IMG/VR virus record: IMGVR_UViG_3300023172_000031
Location: 1 to 59,836 of that record
From: a virus
DNA length: 59,836 nucleotides
Reading direction: 5' to 3' (one strand)
A program made the position numbers and the translations under genes. The notes beneath the pieces are model-generated. The model saw nothing but the letters and a program-made list of their open reading frames with translations. It had not been told where the DNA came from and ran no database searches. Shown one piece after another: positions 19,517 through 38,859 of this stretch; position 1 is the first letter of the stretch, and each line of letters starts with the position of its first letter.

Positions 19517-20283
19517 CCTATTTTTACATAATTGATCATTGTTTCGGGGTATTTGGTAATAAAGTTTTTACCGTGGCCTTTTACTTTGCCTTTTATTTTG
19601 AACGTAGTATCTACTTTTGGCAGTTGCTTAGTTTGATCAAAGTTTTTAAAGAAACTGACAAGGTTACCATCAAGTGATCCATTTAATACATGGCAACCGA
19701 AACGTTCTACAAAACGAATTTCATTAAGTGTAAACATACCAAACACTTGTTCACCAATACGCCCAATGTGTTTACTTTCACTAAAGTCGTTTTTAATCTT
19801 TTTCTTTAGTTCTTTCTTTTCGAAACTATCAAAATATACTTTTGGAAGAACTGCTACAACACCAAAGTCGGAACGTTTCAAAGTACTTTTAGTAATAGAT
19901 TCAAGTAGTGACTTCATAAAGTCGTTTAACGAATCAGCAATTACGGCAAATGCGTTTTCTTTGTGCAAATACTCTACACTTTTACGAGCATTCTCACGGT
20001 CTTCATCAATTACTGTAATAGGCTGGAAGTCCGGAGGGTTCATACCGTACGGTGCTAATTGGCATAACATTGATTCTTTATTAGAGAAAAGTGTAGGATT
20101 GTCTTCTGAAAACCTACGTGTATCTCTATAATAGCCACCGTTGTGTCGATGTGTTGCAAATGCAACAGACAATACTTCTAGAGTATCGTATTCTTTTTTC
20201 TTTGTATTCGCCACGGGTTTTACCTTGCCTTCGTTTCTAAGTTCAAATGCTAGTTCTTGTGTTTTGAACTCTTTCTTTGTCAT
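19513..20283 (-). CDS. conserved phage protein, possible OB-type ssDNA-binding C-terminus
   Basis: 256 residues from the ATG at 20283 (MTKKEF); an ATG at 20307 is also possible. The C-terminal part, SKHIGRIGEQVFGMFTLNEI ... GSLDGNLVSFFKNF ... IKGKVKGHGKNF, has the strand order of an OB-fold domain frequent in phage replication proteins. The rest is unassigned. It is preceded by a promoter whose -10 is covered by a perfect inverted repeat, so it appears to be under repressor-type control. Confidence 0.5.
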   Translation of the reverse strand: MTKKEFKTQELAFELRNEGKVKPVANTKKKEYDTLEVLSVAFATHRHNGGYYRDTRRFSEDNPTLFSNKESMLCQLAPYGMNPPDFQPITVIDEDRENARKSVEYLHKENAFAVIADSLNDFMKSLLESITKSTLKRSDFGVVAVLPKVYFDSFEKKELKKKIKNDFSESKHIGRIGEQVFGMFTLNEIRFVERFGCHVLNGSLDGNLVSFFKNFDQTKQLPKVDTTFKIKGKVKGHGKNFITKYPETMINYVKIG

Positions 20284-20322
20284 ATCGCCTATCATTAGAA
20301 GCCTCATTACCTAAGTGTTATA

Positions 20323-20337
20323 GTGTTATAATAACAC
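20323..20337. promoter_or_regulatory. operator-like perfect inverted repeat over a -10 box
   Basis: GTGTTAT-A-ATAACAC, two 7-base arms about a single base, covering the TATTAT -10 box of the promoter at 20328-20356. The half-site-like phrase GTGTTATA is also repeated directly next to it. Size and place fit a dimeric repressor site. Confidence 0.5.
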
Positions 20338-20356
20338 AAAGTATTATATTTGTCAA
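20328..20356 (-). promoter_or_regulatory. sigma70-type early promoter
   Basis: TTGACA (20351-20356), 17 bases, TATTAT (20328-20333), upstream of 19513-20283. Confidence 0.82.
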
Positions 20357-20367
20357 CCAAAAAAATA

Positions 20368-20934
20368 TTAAAATATGTGATCTGCAATACCTAAATCAAC
20401 CATTTGTTTGGCTGTGTAATATTGATCACTTGGGTTCTTAATAAATTTGTTACGTACTTCTTGGATTGTCATTCCGCTGGCATCTTTTAATATTTGTAAA
20501 CAACGCATTTCACAGTTTTGGTTTTCTTTCATCTGTGCTTTCATGTCGTGTACTTTGGCTTCCATTGAGTCGGAATGTTGATGATTCATTGAACCTGCAT
20601 TTTTACCAACATAACGCTCACCCTGTTTGCCACTAGCAAAAATTAAAAAGCCAGCACTCATAACAGCACCAATACCGATAGTGCTAATGTTATGATAACT
20701 GTTCTTCATTACATCAATCAAAGCAAATGCTTCGTATAGGTCTCCGCCATATGTGTTAATGTAAAGTTTAAGGGTACGTTTTGGTTTCTTGTTTAAGTTT
20801 GCAGAAAGAATCCATTTGATTGCTTCACCTACATTTTCACTAGCAATGTCGCCGTGCAGATAATGGATATCACTGTCCAACAGACTTTTATCAATGGCGT
20901 CACTTGCAGTCCAATTATCGTATTTTGTAGGCAT
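20368..20934 (-). CDS. clpP: ClpP-like serine protease
   Basis: 188 residues. INTYGGDLYEAFALIDVM, then GAVMSAGFLIFASG with the nucleophile Ser, then MNHQHS with the His, and a late Asp in NPSDQYYTAKQ: the complete ClpP order. ClpP forms a degradation chamber fed by an AAA+ unfoldase, here presumably host ClpA or ClpX. In T4-like phages ClpP-like proteins can instead act as prohead proteases, but the clpS gene in the same window favours a proteolysis role. A late-type promoter at 20961-20967 precedes it. Confidence 0.82.
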   Translation of the reverse strand: MPTKYDNWTASDAIDKSLLDSDIHYLHGDIASENVGEAIKWILSANLNKKPKRTLKLYINTYGGDLYEAFALIDVMKNSYHNISTIGIGAVMSAGFLIFASGKQGERYVGKNAGSMNHQHSDSMEAKVHDMKAQMKENQNCEMRCLQILKDASGMTIQEVRNKFIKNPSDQYYTAKQMVDLGIADHIF

Positions 20935-20960
20935 ATTTTATTCTATTAGTTATGTACGTA

Positions 20961-20967
20961 TATTTAT
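20961..20967 (-). promoter_or_regulatory. late-type promoter of clpP
   Basis: Minus-strand AATAAATAT, 27 bases before the clpP ATG, inside the end of the upstream gene. Confidence 0.45.
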
Positions 20968-21440
20968 TCGATTGCCCAGGCTTTGTGACCAAGATCGTTT
21001 TGCTCGGCCCATCTAACAAATAGGCCTATTTCACGACCCATTGCTTCAATTTCCCATGGATAATCCCAGTAACTCATTTTGTCACGGTTGTATTCTACTC
21101 CGTCAAATTTAACATATTGACGTCCTTTCATCAGATCCTTCATTTGACCTGTTGCGAACTGTTTGACGTGTACCATTTCGTGACACACTGATTCTAGTGC
21201 TTTACGTAGTGGTTGTGATTTGTCAATTTCTATAGTAAATTCCTTAGGACGAGTATTATCATCTTCCCACATACAAGTACCGCACTCGTTGTGTTTTTCA
21301 TACATATCTTTTGTGTATCGTACTGTAACTTCTAGTGAGTTTGTCATTCGCTTAGACATAAGCATATATGCACAGAAATGAACTAGGCTTTCTGTGTATT
21401 TCTTTTGACTGCGATTAGCATTTACTACGGTAACTTGCAC
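20964..21440 (-). CDS. SprT-like zinc metallopeptidase candidate
   Basis: 158 residues. SVCHEMVHVKQFATG has the HExxH zinc site and, about 45 residues later, YWDYPWEIEAMG supplies a downstream Glu that could be the third ligand. CGTCMWEDD may form part of a second metal site. The arrangement is like SprT/WSS1-type or phage DUF metallopeptidases. Substrate unknown; DNA-protein crosslinks are one possibility. Confidence 0.65.
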   Translation of the reverse strand: MQVTVVNANRSQKKYTESLVHFCAYMLMSKRMTNSLEVTVRYTKDMYEKHNECGTCMWEDDNTRPKEFTIEIDKSQPLRKALESVCHEMVHVKQFATGQMKDLMKGRQYVKFDGVEYNRDKMSYWDYPWEIEAMGREIGLFVRWAEQNDLGHKAWAIE

Positions 21441-21442
21441 TA

Positions 21443-21637
21443 TTACTTTTCCTCTTGTTTAGTGTATGCACTTCTGTCTTGTGAAACCAGATAACAATCG
21501 GCTTGTATCTGTGCAATTAGATTATCAATTTCTAAATTTGAACCCTTGACTGCACCATATTTTAGTTCTCTTAATCTGTCGGCATCTTTTTTAATACCAT
21601 CAATCTTGTCGCACATTTGGCTAATTTTATGAAGCAT
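21443..21637 (-). CDS. small helical protein, 64 aa
   Basis: Begins MLHKISQMCDKIDGIKKD and is helical throughout, probably coiled coil, with a GGAGG site directly before it and its own early promoter at 21667-21695. No function recognised. Confidence 0.55.
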   Translation of the reverse strand: MLHKISQMCDKIDGIKKDADRLRELKYGAVKGSNLEIDNLIAQIQADCYLVSQDRSAYTKQEEK

Positions 21638-21659
21638 TGATCCCTCCTTATTTTTAAAC

Positions 21660-21667
21660 TATAAATA
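21660..21667 (+). promoter_or_regulatory. plus-strand TATAAATA, possible late promoter
   Basis: An exact T4-type TATAAATA, 28 bases before the GTG at 21696. It overlaps the -10 box of the minus-strand promoter (21667-21672), so use of the two might be exclusive. The sequence is nearly palindromic (ACTATAAATAGT), so chance is possible. Confidence 0.45.
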
Positions 21668-21695
21668 GTTTAACAGAACGAAAGGCAAAAGTCAA
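21667..21695 (-). promoter_or_regulatory. sigma70-type early promoter
   Basis: TTGACT (21690-21695), 17 bases, TAAACT (21667-21672), before 21443-21637. Confidence 0.7.
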
Positions 21696-22058
21696 GTGGA
21701 AATTTTCCTATTTTTAATGATAAAACACGCTATTGTTGACCTTGGTTTTCAACCATTTGGTCTCGGTAGTTCCAAAAAATATTATTTTGGTTGGCCCGCT
21801 CACAAACAACATTATGTCCCACACGGACTCTTAACCGTGCTTGTAATGGCGTCTTACACGCACATAAACGTCGCTGTAGCGTTGGGAATACTAGATTATA
21901 TACTACACTGGCATACAGACTTTACTAAGACTAAAATACGTAATTATTTTGAATGGACTAGCAAAGACAGACAGTTTTGGATTTTGAATGCTGTAGATCA
22001 AATACTACACTTTACTGGATACTATATAATTGTGTTGATTGCTACTTCACAAATTTAA
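21696..22058 (+). CDS. DUF3307-like membrane protein
   Basis: 120 residues from a GTG with AAAGG about 10 bases upstream; an ATG at 21717 would remove part of the first helix. Hydrophobic helices alternate with polar residues (MIKHAIVDLGFQ, HGLLTVLVMASY, ILDYILHWHTDFTK, AVDQILHFTGYYI); the H/D-rich pattern D..H...D..K and DQ.LH resembles DUF3307. It is a lone plus-strand gene within minus-strand genes and overlaps the convergent gene by 17 bases. Confidence 0.6.
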   Translation: MEIFLFLMIKHAIVDLGFQPFGLGSSKKYYFGWPAHKQHYVPHGLLTVLVMASYTHINVAVALGILDYILHWHTDFTKTKIRNYFEWTSKDRQFWILNAVDQILHFTGYYIIVLIATSQI

Positions 22059-23409
22059 ACGCAAACTTACCGCCAATACGTGAACTATAATAATTCTTAG
22101 AACCATCTAGTGCAACAGTACCTTGGAAGTTTGGAGGGTAAACAGCCTGGAAGCCAGTTACACGAATGTCGTCACCCTTCTTACCAACTTTGGTATAAAG
22201 TTGTATAATACTTGCTGTGTTTAATAATGAAATTGCTTCTGTAGAAAATTTTGGATTTTCGTTTACCTTGAGTGCAACCTTTTTAGCCAACGCACTTGTG
22301 ATAGCATATCCGGTATTAAACCCTTGAACAGTCATATCAAAGTTAACACCTTCAACCATTTTAGTTGCTTCGTCACTCATGTTTTCAAAGTCTTGTTTAC
22401 CTTGCTTCATATACTCGTCTGCTTCTTTTCTTAGTGCAGGAGTTGATAACTGAAACTTTTCGCCTAAATCAAAAGGTGCTTCTTTTGCACTCTTAGTTGC
22501 AATAGTTGTAACTATGTCTGCAACAAACTTTGTATTTGACATTAGTTCGGCATTGTCTTTGTTCTTTTCTAAAGAGTCATACAAGTTCTTTGCACTAGCA
22601 GATGCACCAGCGCCACCTTTAGAACTAATACCAATCTCTTTGCCGTCTGGAGCAAGGAACACGCTATCGACTAAGTTGTAGTTCATTGCCATAGGCCAAA
22701 AGATATTAAGGTCTTTCCAGTTAGCGCCACCGGCTAACTCTTGTCTTGCCTGTTCGGCGTCACCTTGTACAAGGCCACCCATCATAGCAACCGGACCCAT
22801 AATTTCACCAAAGTAATCTCTAATAGATTCTAGTTTTTCAATCTGCCCTGGGAACTCAGGCATTTGTCCATTAGATGCTGATTCAAGTGCAGTTACAAGA
22901 ACTTCACCTTCCTGGCCAGCATTAGTTCTTACAGTTTGAATAATCTGTTCTGGACCTTTAAATTTGTTTTGAGATTTAATTAGTGTTTGTGGATCTAAAC
23001 CAGTATCAATCTTTAACGCACCCTTGGTACCTAATTTCCAACCTGATGGAATTTGACTGTTACCCCAAACACCCATTAGGTCTGCACCTACTTGTCTAAG
23101 ATATCTACCCCAGTAAATGTCTTTACCATCGCTAGTTCTAATCTGTGCAATACCAAATGCTAGTGTTCCTGCGTTAGCAGTATTAACCCATTCAATTTTA
23201 GCATTGTTATTTTTTTCAAACTCTGCAATGGCTTCGTCACGTTCTTCTGCTGTAGCAAATTTACCACCTTGTGAAAGATCTGGAATTGCAATCGCTTGTA
23301 CGAACTCTGCCTTTTCGCCATTGTCGTGGATATATGGCTCTCCAGGTTTACGCCCGAAAATGCCTTTAGACTCTATTACTTGTGTTTGTTTAAATTCGAA
23401 AAACCTCAT
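22042..23409 (-). CDS. hypothetical protein with head-targeting-like N-terminus, 455 aa
   Basis: No family recognised. It begins MRFFEFKQTQVIES, like several proteins of the virion block (50-56 kb) that start M-[RK]-x-x-E/D-[LIF]. The middle has EWVNTANAGTLAFGIAQI and ISSKGGAGASASAKNLYDSL, and the end is FAFKFVK. The N-terminus suggests packaging into the head; alternatively the similarity is chance. A late-type promoter element lies 8 bases before the ATG. Confidence 0.5.
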   Translation of the reverse strand: MRFFEFKQTQVIESKGIFGRKPGEPYIHDNGEKAEFVQAIAIPDLSQGGKFATAEERDEAIAEFEKNNNAKIEWVNTANAGTLAFGIAQIRTSDGKDIYWGRYLRQVGADLMGVWGNSQIPSGWKLGTKGALKIDTGLDPQTLIKSQNKFKGPEQIIQTVRTNAGQEGEVLVTALESASNGQMPEFPGQIEKLESIRDYFGEIMGPVAMMGGLVQGDAEQARQELAGGANWKDLNIFWPMAMNYNLVDSVFLAPDGKEIGISSKGGAGASASAKNLYDSLEKNKDNAELMSNTKFVADIVTTIATKSAKEAPFDLGEKFQLSTPALRKEADEYMKQGKQDFENMSDEATKMVEGVNFDMTVQGFNTGYAITSALAKKVALKVNENPKFSTEAISLLNTASIIQLYTKVGKKGDDIRVTGFQAVYPPNFQGTVALDGSKNYYSSRIGGKFAFKFVK

Positions 23410-23417
23410 AGCACTAG

Positions 23418-23424
23418 TATTTAT
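23418..23424 (-). promoter_or_regulatory. late-type promoter element of 22042-23409
   Basis: Minus-strand GCATAAATACTAGTGCT immediately before the ATG, inside the end of the bilin reductase gene. With T4 spacing the RNA would be almost leaderless. Confidence 0.45.
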
Positions 23425-24116
23425 GCTATTTTTGGAAATAATGCGTTAGTGCAGAATTCGTCAACATCTGCTTCATTAAGTCCTAATGACTTCATAACTC
23501 TAGGTGTATGTGGATTTTGTTGCTGGTTATGGCAGTAGTAGTTTTGAGCACCTGCTGTAATATCTACACTAGCATTGCCTGTATACTCAGGAACACTATC
23601 AAACCATACACGCAGGTTTTCTAAAGCAAGATCTACAATAGCAGTTGCTTCTTCTTCTGTGCGAACATTACCTGCGGCAACCATTCCTGGTGAAAAGATG
23701 TTCTGTGCCCATTCGGGTAGTTCACGTTGTTTACTAGGAATAAAATCTTTAACAGCATCTAAGTACCATTCTACAAGAGGATGTTCTTCACCGCCTGAAC
23801 TTGCTGAAAAATCATGAAATGCACCTGTCATTTTATTCTTACCTGCAATAACATCAAAGCCGTAAATAGGACCATCATTTGATAACACAGGAAAACAACA
23901 TACGTGCATCATCCACAGTCCGTGCGAGTCTCTTGCGTCTACAACATCAATGTGTGCTCTGCGTACATGATCATTTGCCCATACTCTGTTGATCCAACCG
24001 TTCTCAGGCTGATTAAATTTGTTTAATCCTTTTTCTTCTATTTCAGTGGCTTTCTCATCAAAGATGTTTAATATTTCATTTTGGCATTCAATTAGTTTAT
24101 CCCAAATGACACTCAT
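23421..24116 (-). CDS. pcyX: ferredoxin-dependent bilin reductase (PcyX/PebS-type)
   Basis: 231 residues from the ATG at 24116, whose ATGA overlaps the halogenase stop. The core ANDHVRRAHIDVVDARD, then GLWMMHVCCFPV, then PIYGFDVIAGKNKMTGAFHDFS matches the bilin-reductase family (PIxGFDxxxG.NK.....DfS), where the Asp in GFD is catalytic. These enzymes reduce biliverdin with ferredoxin electrons to pink or blue bilins. Phage forms PebS and PcyX make phycoerythrobilin in one four-electron step, and PcyX is known only from uncultured oceanic phages with predicted alphaproteobacterial hosts. Heme oxygenase lies in the same operon. PcyX versus PebS needs a tree. Confidence 0.75.
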   Translation of the reverse strand: MSVIWDKLIECQNEILNIFDEKATEIEEKGLNKFNQPENGWINRVWANDHVRRAHIDVVDARDSHGLWMMHVCCFPVLSNDGPIYGFDVIAGKNKMTGAFHDFSASSGGEEHPLVEWYLDAVKDFIPSKQRELPEWAQNIFSPGMVAAGNVRTEEEATAIVDLALENLRVWFDSVPEYTGNASVDITAGAQNYYCHNQQQNPHTPRVMKSLGLNEADVDEFCTNALFPKIA

Positions 24117-25633
24117 GATCTGTTTCCCCAATCTCTATTATACATACCAGGTGTTGTCCAATCAACATCGTCTTTGTTCATCTTTTCTAAAAGTTCCATG
24201 GCTTTGTCTTTTTCTAATCCTGGTGATGCTGTTTTAATTCCTGTTGTGTTAAGCCATAGTTTCCAATTCATCTCAGCAAAGATTTCTGTATTACGGGGGA
24301 AAAACTGATAGTCATCGTCCCACATAACTGTAGGTGTATAGTTATGTTTAAAGTTTGTTGCAATCTCTGTAAGTTTATCTGTTTCCTTAAAGTTTTTATA
24401 AACGTGTTCCCAAAACTTACCTTTACGTGGATTATTAAAATAATGTAGTGCTACAAAGTTCATAGTATCTTCATAGACTGCTGTCATATCTTCGTTAAAC
24501 TTTAATCTATCTTCTTCAGTATAACTTAGTTTTTCTAAAACTTTTAGGCCACTAGCACCAATTGTAAGTAATGCAAGTCCTGTTGATTCTAACGGTTCAA
24601 TAAATCCACTAGCAAGTCCTACACTAAAACAGTTGCCTCTCCAGTTGTTTGCATTATATTCTGGCTTGAAAGGAACATGATTAAACTGTCCTGTTCTTAG
24701 TCTGTGTTCACCCCAATGCTGTACAAAGAAATCTTCTGCTTCTTGTTTAGTGGTAAGTTCACTGTTGTAACATAGTCCACTACCAATACGATCTTTAACA
24801 GGTGTTTTCCAAATCCAACCTAGGTCACACGCCTGTGCAGTAACGTATGGAAGTTGTACTTCATCTTCTGTTTCGTAATCTATTTGACTTGCTACTGCGG
24901 CATTAGTAAACAGCATATGACTTCTGTCAATCCATTTACTGTCGGGCAATGCATTTGAAAGTAAACGTTTAAAGCCAGTACAGTCTACAAAAAAATCTGC
25001 TGTAACTTTTGTACCGTCATCTAATGTTACATATTCAATAACACCATCAGTAACCTTTGGAGCATCAATGTGTTTTTGAATATGTGTTAGTCTTGGATAC
25101 TTCTTATTAAGATAATCAGATAAGAAGTTTGCTAGTTTAACAGCATCTAAATGATATCCTACATGAGCAGTACCACCGCAAGGTGTTGTGTTATTTGGAA
25201 TCTTTTTATCTACAACAGAAACTTTATGCCAAGCAATATATTTTTCTAATTCAACCTCATTAATGCCGCCGTCACGAGCAAGGTCAATGCTATCAAGTGT
25301 TCCGTGTTCTGTATGTGTTACAGGAAAAAAGAATGGTTGCCAAATGTTAATGCCGTCGCCCTTCCAGTTTGGAAAGTAAGTCCCTGTTTTAATAGTTGCG
25401 TCACAAGCCTTTGTCCATAGTTCTCTAGGAATATTACAATCGTCTAAAAAATGATCAAACCCTAAAATAGTTGCTTCACCTACGCCAACAATAGGAACAT
25501 TAGGACTTTCAATAAGTGTGATTTGTGTTTCGGGTAAGTTTGATAATGCATAAGCGGCCGTAAGCCAACCAGCACTTCCTCCACCTACAATACAAATGGA
25601 CCTAGCACGGCTACGACCTACTACTTCAGTCAT
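24113..25633 (-). CDS. FAD-dependent tryptophan halogenase family protein
   Basis: 506 residues. Near the N-terminus GGGSAGWLTAAYAL is the FAD Rossmann site, then GVGEATIL; a Lys around 80-110 and the segment LGWIWKTPVKDRIGSGL correspond to the WxWxIP-type region of flavin halogenases, and SVGLASGFIEPLESTGLALL is the usual FAD/Cl site. The family oxidises halide to attach Cl, Br or I to indoles or other substrates; a marine phage member (VirX1) iodinates varied substrates. It is wedged between heme oxygenase and bilin reductase with overlaps on both sides. Confidence 0.88.
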   Translation of the reverse strand: MTEVVGRSRARSICIVGGGSAGWLTAAYALSNLPETQITLIESPNVPIVGVGEATILGFDHFLDDCNIPRELWTKACDATIKTGTYFPNWKGDGINIWQPFFFPVTHTEHGTLDSIDLARDGGINEVELEKYIAWHKVSVVDKKIPNNTTPCGGTAHVGYHLDAVKLANFLSDYLNKKYPRLTHIQKHIDAPKVTDGVIEYVTLDDGTKVTADFFVDCTGFKRLLSNALPDSKWIDRSHMLFTNAAVASQIDYETEDEVQLPYVTAQACDLGWIWKTPVKDRIGSGLCYNSELTTKQEAEDFFVQHWGEHRLRTGQFNHVPFKPEYNANNWRGNCFSVGLASGFIEPLESTGLALLTIGASGLKVLEKLSYTEEDRLKFNEDMTAVYEDTMNFVALHYFNNPRKGKFWEHVYKNFKETDKLTEIATNFKHNYTPTVMWDDDYQFFPRNTEIFAEMNWKLWLNTTGIKTASPGLEKDKAMELLEKMNKDDVDWTTPGMYNRDWGNRS

Positions 25634-26165
25634 TATCGACCTCCATCATTTCTTTGAATGTTTCTGTAGCAAAGTCAAAACATATCTTTGCTTCTTCAGC
25701 CATATCATCGTTCAACTGTTCTCTTATGGCTGTTTTCAGTTCGTCAACAGGAGCATCAAATTGATACAATCTTCCTTCTCCTGGAATTTTCTTTTTAATC
25801 ATTTGTCCACCGCTTAGGTCACCCATGTGTCTAACATATACGTGAGCCATGACTTTATCTGGATCTCCCATAATTGTTCTCATATGTTCTAGATACTTTT
25901 CTGTTACTTTTAAAGTTTTAGGCATTTCTTGTTTAGGCCATAACTCTTTAAAATCATCTAGTATGCTCGGGGAACGTCTAATAGCAGGATGAGGCAATAA
26001 GCCATGTGTCATTGCTATTGCTTCTAAAATATTGTATTGAATATGTTGATTATATAAAAATGTTGCATAAAGTTCTTTGTCAATTTTACCTGACATTAAA
26101 ACTTTTACAAATGCTTGGCGTTCTGCGTTCTTATGGTGTTCCCACGTTGCTTCTTTTAAGTTCAT
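25626..26165 (-). CDS. ho1: heme oxygenase
   Basis: 179 residues. ATWEHHKNAERQAF has the proximal heme His, and VRHMGDLSGGQMIKKK is the distal-helix signature GDLSGGQ. It opens heme to biliverdin, CO and iron. In this operon biliverdin would feed the bilin reductase; iron release is a second benefit in iron-poor seawater. The start overlaps the clpS stop (ATGA type) and the stop overlaps the halogenase start by 8 bases. Confidence 0.9.
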   Translation of the reverse strand: MNLKEATWEHHKNAERQAFVKVLMSGKIDKELYATFLYNQHIQYNILEAIAMTHGLLPHPAIRRSPSILDDFKELWPKQEMPKTLKVTEKYLEHMRTIMGDPDKVMAHVYVRHMGDLSGGQMIKKKIPGEGRLYQFDAPVDELKTAIREQLNDDMAEEAKICFDFATETFKEMMEVDND

Positions 26166-26470
26166 TCTTTTTCCACTTTGATCTGCAATGGGAATCCGTT
26201 TGCTCTGCTCAAAGTGGTTGCTTCTACGCTTTTTTGTTCTGCAATTTCAAATGCGTAAACGCCAACTACTGCACTTCCATCTTCATGAATTTGTAGAGTT
26301 AGATTTTTTGCTGTGTCAACAGAATGCTTAAAAGTAGTTACTAGCACATCGATCACGAAATCCATTGGTGTTTGGTCATCATTAATAAAAATAACTGAGT
26401 ACCTTTCGGGCTCAGCAATTTTTATCTTAATCTTTTCGTCAATTTGTACATCCATATTATTACTTATCAT
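26162..26470 (-). CDS. clpS: ClpS protease adaptor
   Basis: 102 residues from the ATG at 26470, preceded by AGGAG. YSVIFINDDQTPMDFVIDVL carries the ClpS NDD-x-T-x-M/PMxFV signature of the N-degron pocket, and HEDGSAVVGVYAFEIAEQK matches the HxxG..v.G.yt.eiAE.k region. ClpS delivers N-end-rule substrates to ClpAP. It lies directly upstream of, and overlaps, heme oxygenase, and a phage ClpP is in the window. Confidence 0.88.
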   Translation of the reverse strand: MISNNMDVQIDEKIKIKIAEPERYSVIFINDDQTPMDFVIDVLVTTFKHSVDTAKNLTLQIHEDGSAVVGVYAFEIAEQKSVEATTLSRANGFPLQIKVEKE

Positions 26471-26498
26471 TGTATGATCTCCTACCAGTAAATAATGA

Positions 26499-26520
26499 TA
26501 GTGGGGATTGCTCCCCACTA
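26499..26520 (-). terminator. strong hairpin between hsp20 and clpS
   Basis: Nine-base-pair stem TAGTGGGGA/TCCCCACTA closed by a GCAA tetraloop in the minus-strand RNA, followed by a moderately T-rich stretch. It may end hsp20 transcription, or act as an RNA processing/stability element before clpS. Confidence 0.55.
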
Positions 26521-26537
26521 CCGACCTTTTAAGTGTA

Positions 26538-26987
26538 TTACTTAACTTCGATTGATCTTGCTTTTTTAGCCTCTGGAATAATTCTTTCCAAAGCAATTCT
26601 AAGCAAGCCATCTTTTAGTTCAGCACCTTGTACTACTACATCGTCTGCAATAGTAAATGATTTAGTAAAGTGCCTTTTACTAATACCTCTGTATTGTACA
26701 CCATCCGCTTCATCGTCAGTTTTTGACTCTTGGATTGATTTAACAGTTACCACACCGTCTTCGTATGATACGTCAATATCCTTTTTGCCAAAACCAGCAA
26801 GTGCTAATTCAATATCGTAAGTATAGTCGCCTGTTTTTACAATATTGTATGGCGGATAGTTAGTGTTAAAAGTAGGTGCATTGAAGAAGTCGTCTTCAAT
26901 CATTCTTTCGAATCTATCAAAGATAGGATCGAACCCTACTGATACGGGTCTTAGTTGGTTAAAGATTGATAGTGATTTGTTTGTCAT
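26538..26987 (-). CDS. hsp20: Hsp20/IbpA small heat-shock protein
   Basis: 149 residues. The alpha-crystallin domain runs from YPPYNIVKTGDYTYDIELALAGF to LKDGLLRIALERIIPEAKK, with the G-x-L motif (GLLRIAL) and C-terminal basic tail. Small Hsps hold unfolding proteins for DnaK. The gene has a leader with a late-type ATAAATA site and a 5' hairpin like that of dnaK. Confidence 0.88.
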   Translation of the reverse strand: MTNKSLSIFNQLRPVSVGFDPIFDRFERMIEDDFFNAPTFNTNYPPYNIVKTGDYTYDIELALAGFGKKDIDVSYEDGVVTVKSIQESKTDDEADGVQYRGISKRHFTKSFTIADDVVVQGAELKDGLLRIALERIIPEAKKARSIEVK

Positions 26988-27020
26988 TTGTTTTCTCCTT
27001 ATTAAGCAAGTTGTTTGTCA

Positions 27021-27045
27021 TGTAAGACCTATCAAGCATCTTACA
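27021..27045 (-). promoter_or_regulatory. 5' leader hairpin of hsp20 with conserved 11-base loop
   Basis: RNA stem UGUAAGA/UCUUACA (7 pairs) with loop UGCUUGAUAGG. An ATAAATA late-type box at 27050-27056 lies 4 bases upstream, so the hairpin would be at the RNA 5' end. The dnaK leader has the same design with a different stem; after both comes AACUUGCUUAAUAAGGAG-like sequence or part of it. Confidence 0.6.
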
Positions 27046-27048
27046 ATC

Positions 27049-28941
27049 TTATTTATCTACCTCTTCAAACTCGGCGTCTACAACGTTTTCATCTTTCTTA
27101 GATGTTGTTTCTGCTTCTTCTGAAGTGTTAGATTCTTGTTGTGCCTTGTAAACTGCTTCACCTAACTTCATTGCCACTTGTGATAGTGCTTCTGTTTTAG
27201 ATTTAATATCTTCAACATTGTCACCTTTAAGTGCTTCTTGTAAGTTAGTCTTAGCATCTTCAATTGATGTTTTAATATCTTCCGATACTTTATCACCGTG
27301 TTCTTTTAACTGTGATTCAACTGAGTGTACAAGACCGTCAGCATTGTTTCTAGCATCTACGGCTTCTCTCTTTTGTTTGTCAGCCTCTTTATTTGCTTCT
27401 GCATCTTTGACCATTTGTTCAATTTCTGCATCACTCAAACCGCCGTCTGATTTAATAGAGATTGTTTGTTCTTTGCCTGTGCCTTTATCTTTTGCTGATA
27501 CGTTAACAATACCGTTTGCGTCAATATCAAATGTTACTTCAATTTGAGGCATACCTTTTGGTGCTGGTGCAATACCTTCTAGATTAAAGAGACCAAGTTC
27601 TTTATTATCTACAGCCATTTCACGCTCACCTTGTAATACCTTAATAGTAACTGCTGATTGATTATCTTCCGCAGTACTAAACACTTGTGATTGTTTAGTT
27701 GGGATTGTTGTATTCTTTTCAATTAGTTTAGTAGTAACACCGCCTAGTGTTTCAATACCCAATGAAAGCGGAGTAACGTCAAGTAGCAATACATCTTTAA
27801 CATCACCACTTAATACACCTGCTTGAATTGCGGCACCTAGTGCTACAACTTCATCTGGGTTAACACCTTTGTTTGGATCTTTACCAAAGAATGTTTTAAC
27901 AGTTTCTTGTACCTTAGGCATACGTGTCATACCACCTACTAGTACAACGTCTGTAATATCACCTTTGCTTACACCTGCGTCTTTAAGAGCAGTTTCACAA
28001 GGTTTAATTGAACGTTGGATTAGTTCGTCTACAAGACTTTCAAACTTAGCACGAGTAATTTTTAAATTCAAGTGCTTAGGTCCAGAAGCATCTGCTGTAA
28101 TAAATGGTAGACTGATGTCAGTTTGTGTTGTGCTTGACAATTCAATCTTTGTTTTTTCAGCCGCTTCACGTACACGTTGTAGTGCTAGTTTGTCTGTTGA
28201 AATATCTACACCAGACTCTTTCTTAAACTCGTCTACAATGTATTGTGTAAGAACAGCATCAAAGTCTTCACCACCTAATGCTGTGTCACCGTTTGTTGAA
28301 AGTACTTCAAATACTCCGTCACCGAGGTCAAGTACTGATACGTCAAATGTACCACCACCTAAGTCATACACAACAATCTTGCCTGACTCTTTTTTATCTA
28401 GTCCGTAAGCAAGTGCCGCCGCTGTTGGTTCATTTACAATACGTAAAACTTCTAGTCCTGCAATTTTACCTGCATCTTTAGTTGCTTGACGTTGTGCATC
28501 GTTAAAGTATGCTGGTACTGTAATAACTGCTTGTGTTACAGTTGAGCCTGTATACTTTTCAGCAGTTTCTTTCATCTTGGTTAATACTTCTGCTGATACT
28601 TGTTGTGGGGAAAGTTCTTTACCTTTTGTTTCTACCCACGCATCACCGTTCTTTGCTTCTACAATTTTGTATGGAAGCGTTTTAGCATCACGTGTGATTT
28701 CTTTTGATTTAAACTTACGTCCAATTAGACGCTTTGACGCATAGATTGTGTTCTCTGCGTTAGTAACTGCTTGACGCTTTGCTGATACACCTACAAGTGT
28801 ACCATCGTCAGTATAGGCTACAATACTAGGTGTAGTTCTATTACCTTCTACGTTTTCAATTACTTGGGGATCTTTGCCGCTTAGTATAGCAACACATGAA
28901 TTTGTGGTACCCAAATCGATACCAATAACTTTATTAGCCAT
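27049..28941 (-). CDS. dnaK: DnaK (Hsp70) chaperone
   Basis: 630 residues from [16 protein letters not shown] at 28941 (AAGGAG before it); nearly the full length of bacterial DnaK. ATPase signatures [22 protein letters not shown] and [12 protein letters not shown], the linker region [15 protein letters not shown], substrate-binding domain and an acidic C-terminal tail ending EEVDK are present. It is thus complete, not a fragment. Phage DnaK may support folding of fibre and capsid proteins or replace degraded host chaperone. No dnaJ or grpE is visible here. Confidence 0.95.
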
Positions 28942-28969
28942 TTTTTTCTCCTTATTAAGCAAGTTTTAA

Positions 28970-28996
28970 TTACAAAACCTATTCAGCATTTTGTAA
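28970..28996 (-). promoter_or_regulatory. 5' leader hairpin of dnaK with conserved 11-base loop
   Basis: RNA stem UUACAAAA/UUUUGUAA (8 pairs) with loop UGCUGAAUAGG, against UGCUUGAUAGG in hsp20. Stem bases differ but pairing and loop length are kept, which is covariation. It lies 8 bases downstream of an ATAAATA box (29005-29011). Confidence 0.62.
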
Positions 28997-29004
28997 CATA
29001 TAAG

Positions 29005-29011
29005 TATTTAT
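29005..29011 (-). promoter_or_regulatory. late-type promoter of dnaK
   Basis: Minus-strand GATAAATACTTAT. The start of the RNA would fall near 28999, at the base of the leader hairpin. Confidence 0.55.
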
Positions 29012-29024
29012 CACTTATATAGTA

Positions 29025-29053
29025 TATATAGTGTTAAATCGACTATTTTTCAA
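29025..29053 (-). promoter_or_regulatory. sigma70-type promoter of dnaK
   Basis: TTGAAA (29048-29053), 17 bases, TATATA (29025-29030). With the late-type box 14 bases downstream this makes a tandem early/late promoter. Confidence 0.65.
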
Positions 29054-29062
29054 GTCTAAATG

Positions 29063-29623
29063 TTACCGATTTATAAAATAAAACTGATTGATACTATATC
29101 TACCACTTCCTATACACCTAGATACACTATGTTGTAAAAAACTTGGAAATAATATAGTTGTATTATTTTTTAATGTAGGCTTATATCCAAAGTCTGTAAA
29201 CTCTAAATCTCCACCTTCAAATGCTTTTGGTTCTTTCCATAAAACTGTCACGGCAGATAATGTGCCATGATCAGCATGATGATCATATACTGCTCCGTTT
29301 CCATAATAGTTTACCTGTGTTACATCATGGTTAGTGTAAGGTAAGTATCCTGCAAACGGATTGTCTTTTAGTTGCTCTTGCAAATAAAATAGTTTCCTAT
29401 TAAAGTTCAAGACGTAACTTTTTTCTCTGTTATCTTTATAGTGTGTATCCATGTGAATAGCACACATTTTATCATTTGCTCTAGGGTCGCCAGTTTCTGC
29501 TGACGGTCTAAAGTATGCGTCTAGTGAATTAATCTCTACAAGGATTTCTTTTAGTTCCCACGGTTCGTAAAAATCGTAGATGATACTATGATGAAAAGGT
29601 TCATGTAGATTCTTAACAAGCAC
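29063..29623 (-). CDS. 2OG-Fe(II) oxygenase
   Basis: 186 residues. YDHHADHGTLSAVTVLW has the HxD pair, FEGGDLEF the usual strand, FPSFLQHSVSR the distal His, and GRYSINQFYF the Arg. It belongs to the PKHD-like group. It abuts guaC (stop and start share a base), so it is likely translated with it. Confidence 0.78.
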   Translation of the reverse strand: MLVKNLHEPFHHSIIYDFYEPWELKEILVEINSLDAYFRPSAETGDPRANDKMCAIHMDTHYKDNREKSYVLNFNRKLFYLQEQLKDNPFAGYLPYTNHDVTQVNYYGNGAVYDHHADHGTLSAVTVLWKEPKAFEGGDLEFTDFGYKPTLKNNTTILFPSFLQHSVSRCIGSGRYSINQFYFINR

Positions 29624-30774
29624 TAGTTACCTATTGTGTTTTTTTCGTATACAGTATTGTGTGTTTGTGTACAACGTACAAATGTAGCACATCTACTTAG
29701 ATGTTTAAGTCTTATTGCGCCAGCATAAGTACAAGCAGAACGCAACCCACCCAAGATATCTTGAACAGTAGTAGCCACTGCTCCTCGGTAAGGCACAAGA
29801 ATTTCTCTTCCTTCACTGCTTCTATACTCCTTAAGGCCTCCAAAGTGTTTGTCGTTCGCGGCCTTCGAACTCATTCCGTAGAATTGTACAAACTTTTTTT
29901 CTTCAATTTTATTTTGTATACCACCTTGATCAAAAGTAACTTCATCTGTAGTATACATTTTAGTAATTACTTCTCCACCACCTTCATCGTGCCCGGCGAG
30001 CATTCCTCCAAGCATAACAAAATCTGCTCCTGCGGCAAAAGCCTTTGCAACATCTCCAGGCGATACGCATCCTCCATCGGCAATAATGTGTCCACCGAGA
30101 CCGTGTGCGGCGTCGGCACATTCAATGACTGCGGAGAGTTGTGGGAATCCAACCCCAGTTTGAATCCTAGTAGTACACACGCTCCCGGGACCAATACCCA
30201 CCTTAACAATATCCGCTCCACTTAAAATTAACTCCTCTGTCATTTCTCCGGTAACTACATTACCTGCAATAATTACAATATGTGGATATAAACGTCTAAA
30301 CTCTGCAACAAAGTCACGGAAACGATTTGAATATCCGTTAGCAACATCGATACAAACATAACGTAACTTATCACCTGTTTGTTCATATACTTGACGAAAC
30401 TTTTCATGATCGTGATCAGTAATACCAATGCTCATTGCTACATACTGGGTACGTTCATCGTATTCACTATCAAAGTAACATACTAAATCATTTACACTAT
30501 ATGTCTTTTTAAGACAGGTAAACATTTTTACTTCAGCAAGTTTGTCTGCAACTTCAAATGTTCCTACACCATCCATGTTAGCGGCCATAATAGGAATACC
30601 CCGCCAGTGTCTATGATCAGGTCGGATTTGCTCCATGCTCATATCTTGTGGCTTCCAGTTACGCCAAGTAAATCCTCTTTCAAGATCTACTTCTTTACGA
30701 CTTCCTAAAGTTGAACGTTTAGGACGTAGTAATACATCTTTGTAGTCGAGTTTAATGTCTTGGTCGATTCGCAC
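29623..30774 (-). CDS. guaC: GMP reductase / IMP dehydrogenase family (GuaC-like)
   Basis: 383 residues from a GTG at 30774 with CGGAG 6 bases upstream; an ATG at 30804 would overlap the upstream gene by 53 bases. DYKDVLLRPKRST opens the TIM barrel, IPIMAANMDGVGTFE is typical of GMP reductase, and KVGIGPGSVCTTR contains the catalytic Cys loop. IIADGGCVSPGDVAKAF, FVMLGGMLAGHDE follow. It reduces GMP to IMP with NADPH, redirecting purines toward the AT-rich phage genome. No CBS domains are present, which favours GuaC over GuaB. Confidence 0.85.
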   Translation of the reverse strand: MRIDQDIKLDYKDVLLRPKRSTLGSRKEVDLERGFTWRNWKPQDMSMEQIRPDHRHWRGIPIMAANMDGVGTFEVADKLAEVKMFTCLKKTYSVNDLVCYFDSEYDERTQYVAMSIGITDHDHEKFRQVYEQTGDKLRYVCIDVANGYSNRFRDFVAEFRRLYPHIVIIAGNVVTGEMTEELILSGADIVKVGIGPGSVCTTRIQTGVGFPQLSAVIECADAAHGLGGHIIADGGCVSPGDVAKAFAAGADFVMLGGMLAGHDEGGGEVITKMYTTDEVTFDQGGIQNKIEEKKFVQFYGMSSKAANDKHFGGLKEYRSSEGREILVPYRGAVATTVQDILGGLRSACTYAGAIRLKHLSRCATFVRCTQTHNTVYEKNTIGN

Positions 30775-31372
30775 TTTTAACTCCGTAGTTAAACGATACT
30801 GCAATACGTTCGTTGTTGCTTTTGTTTTGTGTTACTTCATGTTTTGCCCAGCCAGGAAATATTGCTACCATGCCAGGTTTAGGCGGATATGTTGCCATTG
30901 TGCTTGTGATAGTATTATACTGACTTAGATTATCGGGAATATAATACTGTGCATCATCAGGACGATAAAATCTTAAATCACCCATATTCTCATCTGGTAC
31001 ATCAATGTAGAATACTCCACTTAGTAATGCATCTTGATGATTGTGTAAAGTGTGATATGCTCCTGGTCCATTAATGTTAATCCAAAAGTTTTGAAATTCA
31101 ACTTCTGGCAATCCGCAGACTTTAGATACATACGCCATAGCCTCATCTAATTCTGTTACAAATTTTCTAAGTACTGGAACGTACTGTGGATCTACTAGAT
31201 CAACATTTTCAATACTACGACTGTGCCACCCACCTTGATTGCTGTTACCATGCAAGTCTGGTTCTTTAGTTCTCCAGTCATGTGCAATATGTTTCATAGC
31301 ATTTCTGTCTACCTTTTCTAAATAGCCGGCAAACACAAATTGCGGAAACCATAAGTCTGCTTTAAATTCCAT
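30752..31372 (-). CDS. 2OG-Fe(II) oxygenase (TIGR02466-like)
   Basis: 206 residues. NINGPGAYHTLHNHQDALLSG carries the HxH/HxD-type pair, VFYIDVPDENMGDLRF the core strand, and FPGWAKHEVTQNKSNNERIAVSFN the distal His and Arg. This subgroup is common in marine phages and its substrate is unknown. It overlaps both guaC and the bS21 gene. Confidence 0.8.
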   Translation of the reverse strand: MEFKADLWFPQFVFAGYLEKVDRNAMKHIAHDWRTKEPDLHGNSNQGGWHSRSIENVDLVDPQYVPVLRKFVTELDEAMAYVSKVCGLPEVEFQNFWININGPGAYHTLHNHQDALLSGVFYIDVPDENMGDLRFYRPDDAQYYIPDNLSQYNTITSTMATYPPKPGMVAIFPGWAKHEVTQNKSNNERIAVSFNYGVKSANRPRH

Positions 31373-31617
31373 TAATAACCAAATTCCCTTTCTTTACGGC
31401 GAACTTCTTTAAGCCAACGGGCACGACCTGCCGCTTTTGCTTTCTTACGTCTTTCACTAGGTTTAATATAGTGTTGACGTTCACGTAGTTCTTGGAGTAC
31501 TCCATCTTGTGAAACTTTTCTTTTGAATGTTCGTAGTGCTTTATTAAAGTCGCCATTTTTTACTTCGACGGTTAACCCTTTGAAATGGTTATCGTCTTTC
31601 TTCCGTTGTCTTGACAA
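31372..31617 (-). CDS. rpsU: ribosomal protein bS21 homologue 2
   Basis: 81 residues from a TTG start with AAGGAG 9 bases upstream. A 20-residue N-terminal extension (MSRQRKKDDNHFKG) precedes the bS21 core FNKALRTFKRKVSQDGVLQELRERQHY and KPSERRKKAKAAGRAR. It differs clearly from the copy at 19047-19244. Two bS21 genes in one phage could serve different growth phases, or one may work outside the ribosome. Confidence 0.82.
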   Translation of the reverse strand: MSRQRKKDDNHFKGLTVEVKNGDFNKALRTFKRKVSQDGVLQELRERQHYIKPSERRKKAKAAGRARWLKEVRRKEREFGY

Positions 31618-31993
31618 AATACTGTTCTCCTTCTGCTATCTGTCGAAGATCGTAGACTCTATTATTACTAATTAAATTATATGGTCTTTCGTTGTTACTT
31701 GTCAAGTAAAAAGTTTTAGATAATGGAAGAAGATATCCAATAAGCCAAACACAACTACTAGGCACATTATCTACATCAATAATAATGTAATCTACGTAAT
31801 TAGAAACCTCAATAACCCAATCCTGTTCTTCTTTGCTATCAAAAAGGTACAGATTAATATCCGCTTTAATATTCTTTGCAACTTCATTAAACTGTTCTTT
31901 TATATTGTCGCTAGGATTAACCAAAAGAAAACTTAAATTATTATTCATAAGTTTATCTGGAGGTGTGATCAGATTAATAATAGGTTCACTCAT
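31589..31993 (-). CDS. hypothetical protein, 134 aa
   Basis: No family recognised. A Rossmann-like alternation is visible (LSFLLVNPSD, DINLYLFDSKEEQDWVIEV, VDYIIIDVDNVP, TFYLTSNNERPY), so a small alpha/beta fold, perhaps a nucleotide-binding or TIR/toprim-like domain, is possible. It overlaps the bS21 gene by 29 bases. Confidence 0.5.
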   Translation of the reverse strand: MSEPIINLITPPDKLMNNNLSFLLVNPSDNIKEQFNEVAKNIKADINLYLFDSKEEQDWVIEVSNYVDYIIIDVDNVPSSCVWLIGYLLPLSKTFYLTSNNERPYNLISNNRVYDLRQIAEGEQYFVKTTEERR

Positions 31994-32083
31994 AACAAAA
32001 TTACTTATTTAATTATTTGTGGATCTTGTGCCAAACTGAATTATCAGTTTGTTCGGAATTTTGAACGTATGTGTCTGGTTCAA

Positions 32084-38296: not shown

Positions 38297-38483
38297 CGTC
38301 TTTTTTCTTTAGGCTCCAATTACCATTGTCTAATTCTTCCCAGATAAGTGTATCGCCAATGTCCCAACCTACTTGGGCTAATGCTTCTGGGGGGAGTTCT
38401 AAATATAATTCTTTTGTCTTGCCATCTTCTTGAACTTGAACAGTCCAAGAATTTTCACCGGTCTGTATTGGATTTCGTATCAT
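38289..38483 (-). CDS. AbrB/SpoVT-like small protein, 64 aa
   Basis: Start at the ATG at 38483, with AAAGG upstream. LPPEALAQVGWDIGDTLIWEEL is the swapped-hairpin AbrB-like signature (LPpexl...gw..GD.l). Such proteins are small DNA-binding or antitoxin-like regulators, but widespread phage copies have no known role. First gene of the 38.5-36.9 kb operon. Confidence 0.55.
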   Translation of the reverse strand: MIRNPIQTGENSWTVQVQEDGKTKELYLELPPEALAQVGWDIGDTLIWEELDNGNWSLKKKDDV

Positions 38484-38509
38484 TGCTGTCACCTTTGATA
38501 ATTAAAAAG

Positions 38510-38824
38510 TGCAACTTTTCTGTTGCTAGGGAAGTTGCCACCCCCGAGTGATTATGCCGCTAGGGCAAAATCCTCAGAAAGACGAACGTCTTTTTGCTCA
38601 CCGAAGTTTACAAAAGAAACGTTGTCCAATGCTTTATCGTTTGCATCTATAACGTTTGCTTGATTTACGGTCATCGCCTACCGGTAACTCCACGTTCTCT
38701 AGTACATCAGTCGATCCCGATCACCCCCTCAAAGCACACTCTGTGAATGTGTTTTAAGTGAATGGTGGAGGTGGGGGGAATTGAACCCCCGTCCTGCCTG
38801 TGTTCGATTGGCTTCATCGTTACA
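38510..38824 (-). ncRNA. ssrA: circularly permuted (two-piece) tmRNA
   Basis: On the minus strand the acceptor half comes first: T arm GGGGG/CCCCC with loop TTCAATT (38774-38790), acceptor CACCTCC (38767-38773), A and encoded CCA (38763-38766). About 35 bases later the coding half begins with GGGGGTG (38722-38728), which pairs perfectly (one G-U) with CACCTCC, followed by the D-arm-like GGATCGAC. The tag frame starts with GCA at 38644 (AND...), runs 30 codons and ends ALAA-TAA at 38552-38554. This 3'-before-5' order is the permuted gene of alphaproteobacteria, where the linker is cut out. Exact outer ends are estimates. Confidence 0.93.
38511..38526 (-). terminator. hairpin and U run at the end of the tmRNA gene
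   Basis: RNA stem GCAAC/GUUGC with 6-base loop, then ACUUUUUAAUU. Short, but in the right place to end the tmRNA precursor. Confidence 0.5.
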
Positions 38825-38830
38825 ATACTT

Positions 38831-38859
38831 ATTTAACTACATTTTAACGCACTTGTCAA
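38831..38859 (-). promoter_or_regulatory. sigma70-type promoter of the tmRNA gene
   Basis: TTGACA (38854-38859), 17 bases, TTAAAT (38831-38836). The RNA would start about 35 bases before the T arm. Confidence 0.72.

Follow-up and report, generated by a model that had tools for sequence, protein, structure and literature searches.

A halogenase gene between heme oxygenase and PcyX in a phage bilin cassette

The hemO-pcyX cassette of aquatic phages was reportedly described by Ledermann in 2016. That such phages carry heme oxygenase (HO) together with the bilin reductase PcyX is already known (PMC11480375, in the part of the paper covered). Here we analyzed a variant of this cassette in a 59,836-nucleotide stretch of viral DNA (IMG/VR record IMGVR_UViG_3300023172_000031, hereafter the window), where a gene for a flavin-dependent halogenase lies between HO and PcyX. 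As in the known cassette, HO is followed by a PcyX reductase bearing the PcyX aspartate; unlike in the known cassette, a halogenase gene separates the two, clpS and chaperone genes lie upstream, and this aquatic phage looks jumbo-like rather than like a pelagimyophage. The halogenase insertion is a new variation on the hemO-pcyX cassette, and provides a direct handle on why phages of phycobilisome-free bacteria make phycoerythrobilin.

An earlier note on this DNA had recognized HO and bilin reductase as a combination known from phages, in agreement with the accessible portion of PMC11480375, and had regarded the halogenase between them as unreported. In the literature searched, which covered few subscription papers, we found no description of a halogenase in this position and no paper joining clpS, HO, halogenase and bilin reductase. 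The words 'halogenase' and 'ClpS' are absent from PMC11480375 and PMC7029224, and four heme-related words are absent from PMC7892664. HO, PcyA/PebS and halogenases are reviewed as separate cyanophage genes in the available sections of PMC10452541.

Two further systems resemble parts of the locus. VirX1 of cyanophage Syn10 (structure 6qgm; PMC8407142, in part) is a flavin-dependent halogenase from a phage and shares the fold (Z 36.2); unlike for VirX1, the gene described here lies in a bilin cassette, and WIWKTP replaces the motif WxWxIP. Phage Atu_ph07 (PMC6102473, from the excerpt seen) likewise has ClpA, ClpS and DnaJ as well as a Clp proteolytic subunit, with Hsp20 near ClpS; seven Clp proteins are reported for it in that excerpt. 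Unlike in Atu_ph07 and Phosso, where a thymidine kinase gene lies between those for Hsp20 and ClpS, clpS is here joined to HO-PcyX.

Gene order and catalytic residues

The four genes of the cassette, in their order of reading, are as follows.

26162..26470, minus strand: ClpS N-degron adaptor, 102 amino acids (PF02617, 95.1 bits; NDDQTPM and H62)
25626..26165, minus strand: HO, 179 amino acids (PF01126, 81.2 bits; H11 and GDLSGG)
24113..25633, minus strand: flavin-dependent (variant A-like) halogenase, 506 amino acids, in the HO-PcyX slot (PF04820, 301.2 bits; motifs; AlphaFold2 model)
23421..24116, minus strand: PcyX-type ferredoxin-dependent bilin reductase, 231 amino acids (PF05996, 63.6 bits; structure match; D57, H71 and D88)

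This four-gene arrangement is real, and it seems to be inherited as a block. As the earlier note had read from the letters, clpS and HO overlap by 4 bases (ATGA), HO and the halogenase by 8, and the halogenase and reductase by 4 (ATGA). All four proteins match their Pfam families (ClpS, Heme_oxygenase, Trp_halogenase and Fe_bilin_red) above the cut-offs and keep the expected residues, bearing out the identities first proposed for them. While the overlaps stand, the suggestion that they fix the ratio of the four products is weak, because overlaps are common in this phage genome. In the longest record of the phage (117.5 kb, overlapping window positions 1-59194 at 99.9%), 49 of the 143 same-strand neighbor pairs overlap, 16 of them by 4 bases, in a census that relied on a crude gene call and took the start nearest the upstream stop, which favors abutting genes.

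Among solved structures the reductase is best matched by PcyX_EBK42635 (5owg, E 9.2e-82), its Fe_bilin_red score exceeds the cut-off of 31 bits, and it is 52.6% identical to the PcyX of Pelagibacter phage Mosig. H71 and D88, which we take to be the residues expected of an active enzyme, are kept together with D57, and all three are invariant in the 14 sequences aligned (14/14). D57 aligns with the aspartate of PcyX_EBK42635 at a position where PcyA has a glutamate; taking residue 9 of the 5owg structure as Met1, it is equivalent to Asp55, named as a PcyX-specific catalytic residue in PMC11480375 (same part). Membership of PcyA (NF002760) was tried and rejected, at 81.1 bits against an equivalog cut-off of 206. 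In HO, H11 and GDLSGG align with solved heme oxygenases, HO2 among them; H11 is presumably the proximal histidine and GDLSGG the GDxSGG of the distal helix. No NCBIfam family matched HO at E 0.01. The hemO and reductase genes stand together in this phage with the halogenase gene separating them, and HO-PcyX is predicted from sequence to make the pink pigment phycoerythrobilin from heme, as it should if both enzymes behave like their families.

The halogenase has the residues of its class. K82, E349 and S350 align with the catalytic residues of Thal (chain numbering shifted by 3), and the roles of these Lys, Glu and Ser residues in flavin-dependent halogenases are set out in PMC7948982 (in the text available). 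The motifs GGGSAG (GxGxxG) and FIEPLESTG (FxxPxxSxG) are both present, and in WIWKTP both tryptophans and the proline of WxWxIP are kept while Ile is replaced by Thr. At the Ile position 13/13 halogenases from the HO-PcyX slot have Thr, and 24 of the 26 other sequences have Ile; WxWxIP variants exist among flavin halogenases (PMC8407142, within the part covered). An AlphaFold2 model of the protein (mean predicted local distance difference test score, pLDDT, 92.3) matched 6y1w with Z 41.9 and PrnA with Z 40.4 in the PDB, with Xcc4156, PrnA and others near 40. Like PrnA, RebH, Thal and Xcc4156, the protein has this fold (Z 39 to 42) and the K/E/S residues; it differs from them in sequence, with about 24-29% identity, and the profile alignment to Thal ends at residue 443 of 534. 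Its top bacterial relative, among the matches listed, is 35% identical. The catalytic residues of slot halogenases are intact down to 53% identity, and dN/dS (the ratio of nonsynonymous to synonymous substitution rates) is 0.08-0.29 in the six close pairs to which the estimate is confined; judged by these ratios, the halogenase is under purifying selection. Thirty-two residues separate slot halogenases from others, and the list pointed to no substrate.

Distribution of the cassette and linkage of the halogenase

Searches started from proteins of the window and took in the best 80 of 259 and the best 80 of 112 confirmed matches. They turned up 169 loci that have both HO and PcyX, representing 95 distinct pairs, Mosig one of them; being the best matches to the window, these pairs do not sample such phages at random. 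The recurring unit is hsp20/dnaK, clpS, HO and PcyX, in that order. clpS is present in 92 of the 94 scorable distinct pairs, and in all 92 it precedes HO and ends within 141 bases of it, with a 4-base overlap in 40 (nearest ATG taken); in 90 of these 92 distinct loci a chaperone gene, hsp20 or dnaK, is directly upstream of clpS, its stop 338-558 bases ahead of that of clpS. Thirteen of the loci L001-L182 gave no pair, namely the window itself (L001), phage HTVC008M (L167), two loci at contig ends (L082 and L164) and nine with HO and no PcyX in the flank (L154, L156-L162 and L165).

Of the 95 pairs, 50 have nothing between HO and PcyX. The slot holds a small coiled open reading frame (ORF) in 24, a halogenase in 11, a halogenase plus a CN hydrolase in 3, a CN hydrolase without halogenase in 3 and some other ORF in 4, making the halogenase an insert in this slot in 14/95 distinct pairs. 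Where the halogenase is alone in the slot, it overlaps PcyX by 4 bases at 10 of 11 loci. CN hydrolases are slot occupants in several PcyX lineages (L101, L124, L136 and L360), and their E, K and C residues are invariant in six aligned copies; as a specific partner of the cassette the CN hydrolase was ruled out, with a slot position at 11/80 loci. The coiled-looking ORF, of 60-80 amino acids (L127:6524-6703 and 23 other distinct loci), is found in the slot of one PcyX clade, and the L127 copy had no Pfam match. One slot (L033:1698-3900) contains a CN hydrolase-like ORF and another HO-like protein, the second of its locus, which scores 30 bits with PF01126; judged by eye, it also contains a 2-oxoglutarate (2OG) oxygenase-like ORF.

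The earlier note had held that relatives with the halogenase elsewhere, away from bilin genes, would speak against a connection. A profile search of viral contigs gave at least 80 halogenase loci, 16 close (L005 among them) and 64 distant. Among the matches listed, halogenases of at least 52% identity lie in the HO-PcyX slot in 16/16 contigs, and the clade turned up only there; at 0 of the 64 loci with halogenases of at most 37% identity was HO, PcyX or clpS found in the flanks, some of which are short. The 13 slot halogenases are monophyletic (Shimodaira-Hasegawa-like approximate likelihood ratio test, SH-aLRT, 100) in a tree that also took in 62 phage sequences and 12 bacterial loci out of 79. 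Relatives with an empty slot had a Trp_halogenase match elsewhere in 4/7 records. Two or more halogenase hits were seen at 41 of the 64 distant-halogenase loci (L183-L246), some with 2OG oxygenase-like hits. In HTVC008M a halogenase gene (L167:6995-8389) separates the small from the large terminase gene and has a dioxygenase next to it.

Possible substrates of the halogenase

Our preferred explanation of the whole, held tentatively and at somewhat less than an even chance, is a jumbo-type phage with a bilin cassette behind a proteostasis block and a halogenase that acts on bilin. The hemO-pcyX cassette would lie directly behind an older hsp20-clpS block. Going by their families, HO would open host heme to biliverdin, iron and CO, and PcyX would reduce biliverdin with host ferredoxin to phycoerythrobilin. 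The halogenase gene would have entered the HO-PcyX slot in some of these phages and stayed intact, and its product, if it works as its family does, would form hypohalous acid from halide, O2 and FADH2 supplied by the host, with K82 guiding it. At a guess, the substrate would be a linear tetrapyrrole made by the neighboring enzymes, yielding a halogenated bilin, and ClpS would serve phage or host ClpAP rather than bilin chemistry. Bilin is our leading guess for the substrate, unproven, because the clade was found nowhere but in the HO-PcyX slot and flavin halogenases acting on pyrroles are known (PMC8407142, in part); unrelated cargo is nearly as likely because the slot takes other genes. Taken by itself, the claim that the phage makes a halogenated linear tetrapyrrole, with biliverdin, dihydrobiliverdin or phycoerythrobilin modified by the halogenase, is possible and on the unlikely side. 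If true, bilin halogenation would be new pigment chemistry; a brief literature search found no report of it as an enzymatic reaction.

Several observations weigh against a link between the halogenase and bilins. Most HO-PcyX pairs (81/95) do without a halogenase, and the nine pairless HO loci named above have neither PcyX nor clpS in the flanks examined. The slot is a general insertion site, having taken a CN hydrolase, a 2OG oxygenase-like ORF, a coiled ORF and a second HO. One relative with an 80% identical PcyX (G003) has three other halogenases outside the slot, at 29-31% identity. PcyX residues D57, H71 and D88 are identical with and without the halogenase, so nothing there marks a changed substrate. 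Neither Fer2 nor the flavin reductase family Flavin_Reduct was matched in seven records, all possibly fragments, so FADH2 would have to come from the host. Finally, the strict linkage of halogenase and slot may reflect a single acquisition. In the PcyX tree halogenase carriers fall into two lineages, and a single clade is rejected (p 5e-5). In the ClpS tree, however, the carriers form a single clade, modestly supported (88), and the HO tree needs four label changes at best, yet one clade is not rejected (p 0.163). The first PcyX tree kept all 95 rows; the ClpS, HO and second PcyX trees omit eight of them, five with long end branches (L073, L104, L106, L150 and L163), two on a long inner branch (L118 and L128) and Mosig (L166), and the ClpS tree, with 86 rows, omits one further row that has no clpS. 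On these trees one halogenase acquisition followed by PcyX exchange is possible. As one acquisition is possible on the ClpS and HO trees, the strict linkage does not stand for many independent observations, and reading it in that way is weakened.

The halogenase could be independent cargo in a tolerated insertion site. Like other phage halogenases, it would then act on a compound that has nothing to do with bilins, for example an indole, a peptide or some metabolite of the host. This alternative, which also falls somewhat short of even, accords with the varied contents of the slot (50 empty, 24 with the coiled ORF, 14 with a halogenase, and others), with the CN hydrolase family lying mostly outside it, and with the other contexts of distant phage halogenases, such as multiple hits at 41/64 loci and the terminase genes of HTVC008M; a single acquisition would account for the linkage. 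It sits less easily with the slot halogenase clade, which unlike the CN hydrolases was not found elsewhere (16/16, among the matches listed), or with catalytic residues kept down to 53% identity under purifying selection.

A cassette for iron is a more doubtful alternative to bilin halogenation. HO would free Fe(II) from host heme for phage iron enzymes, PcyX would only clear biliverdin, and the halogenase would be secondary. Consistent with a demand for iron, the window encodes the large and small chains of ribonucleotide reductase, and a Pfam scan of 40 window proteins gave six of 2OG-Fe(II)/JmjC type above the cut-off and one just below it. However, phages of this kind commonly carry 2OG oxygenases in any case, which counts against this alternative. 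Mosig has ferrochelatase and 2OG oxygenases beside HO-PcyX, and an iron-supply role is discussed in PMC11480375 (again in part). Yet HO alone suffices for iron release, PcyX keeps its three residues in 14/14 aligned sequences, and the halogenase is left unexplained. We regard the iron reading as possible, if rather unlikely.

Proteostasis genes, phage and host

The remaining features of the window that bear on clpS and on the host are these.

26497..26522, minus strand: 11-bp terminator-like hairpin between hsp20 and clpS (pattern scan)
26538..26987, minus strand: Hsp20, directly upstream of clpS (PF00011, 58.3 bits)
27049..28944, minus strand: DnaK (NF001413, 1020 bits against a cut-off of 648)
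20368..20934, minus strand: ClpP-like protease of the same proteostasis complement (PF00574, 93.9 bits; under NCBIfam cut-offs)
38461..38857, minus strand: permuted (two-piece) transfer-messenger RNA (tmRNA) gene (ARAGORN tmRNA*, Rfam)

NDDQTPM and H62 of the ClpS protein align with solved ClpS, and we take NDDxTPM and this histidine to be the residues of the N-degron pocket. Against NCBIfam equivalogs the best score was 88.5 bits for a cut-off of 149, and all 10 listed models stayed under their cut-offs. An extended record of the same phage encodes an AAA+ protein (L255:2992-5133), named ClpA-like because it is under the TIGR02639 cut-off (837 bits against 993, yet the best of 10 listed families) and had no Clp_N match in the 25 Pfam families listed out of 35. 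DnaJ is encoded in the 117.5 kb record. ClpA-like matches were present in 9/18 records and ClpP-like matches in 17/18, many of the records being fragments. ClpA-like, ClpP and ClpS possibly make up a phage-encoded ClpAPS; phage ClpS has been read as feeding host ClpAP (PMC7824862, in the passages available).

Phosso and Atu_ph07 carry Hsp20-thymidine kinase-ClpS, and neither HO nor PcyX was found when both were searched for them; clpS beside HO would therefore be the edge of an older proteostasis block. The idea in the earlier note that ClpS belongs to the bilin unit and clears host enzymes competing for heme is very improbable, since, although clpS precedes HO within 141 bases in 92/92 loci (by a 4-base overlap in 40), it occurs with Hsp20 and away from bilin genes in Phosso and Atu_ph07, as that note had said would count against it, Mosig has HO-PcyX without clpS, the ClpA-like and ClpP genes of the phage make a general ClpS role sufficient, and no evidence for removal of such enzymes was found.

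The DNA polymerase of the phage is closest to those of Phosso (50.8%), Atu_ph07 (46.8%) and 121Q (43.3%) in the top 12 rows from 2590 records, and is 29-31% identical to those of Mosig and HTVC008M. A relative (G006) is a 236.8 kb contig with HO, clpS and a polymerase 79% identical. By these comparisons the phage appears to be a relative of Atu_ph07 and Phosso, both jumbo phages, and our guess is a genome of full jumbo size, over 200 kb. Kinship with pelagimyophages was considered and set aside, as nine Mosig and HTVC008M structural and terminase queries were unmatched in the 117.5 kb record, which may lack that part.

The tmRNA gene scored 104 bits with RF04321 and 74.4 bits with RF01849, and the alpha_tmRNA family was matched. 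The tmRNA family was present in 16 of the 21 records searched (13/17 HO-bearing viral records, both pelagiphages and Phosso, not Atu_ph07), and 1 of 14 control genomes was over the cut-off. Permuted tmRNA is not confined to alphaproteobacteria. Our guess is that the host is probably alphaproteobacterial, as suggested jointly by the permuted tmRNA, the alpha_tmRNA match and what Phosso and Atu_ph07 infect. The find puts the cassette in a seemingly jumbo-related lineage that has several Clp genes and a tmRNA of alphaproteobacterial type, so that the question of hosts no longer concerns pelagimyophages alone.

Pattern scans of the region gave 14 promoter-like sites against 20.4 in shuffles, and three terminator-like sites against 3.1 expected, the hairpin at 26497-26522 among them; an Rfam scan of window positions 20000-32000 gave no match at the gathering score. 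A GMP reductase is encoded at window positions 29623-30804 (NF003470, 508 bits; cut-off 397).

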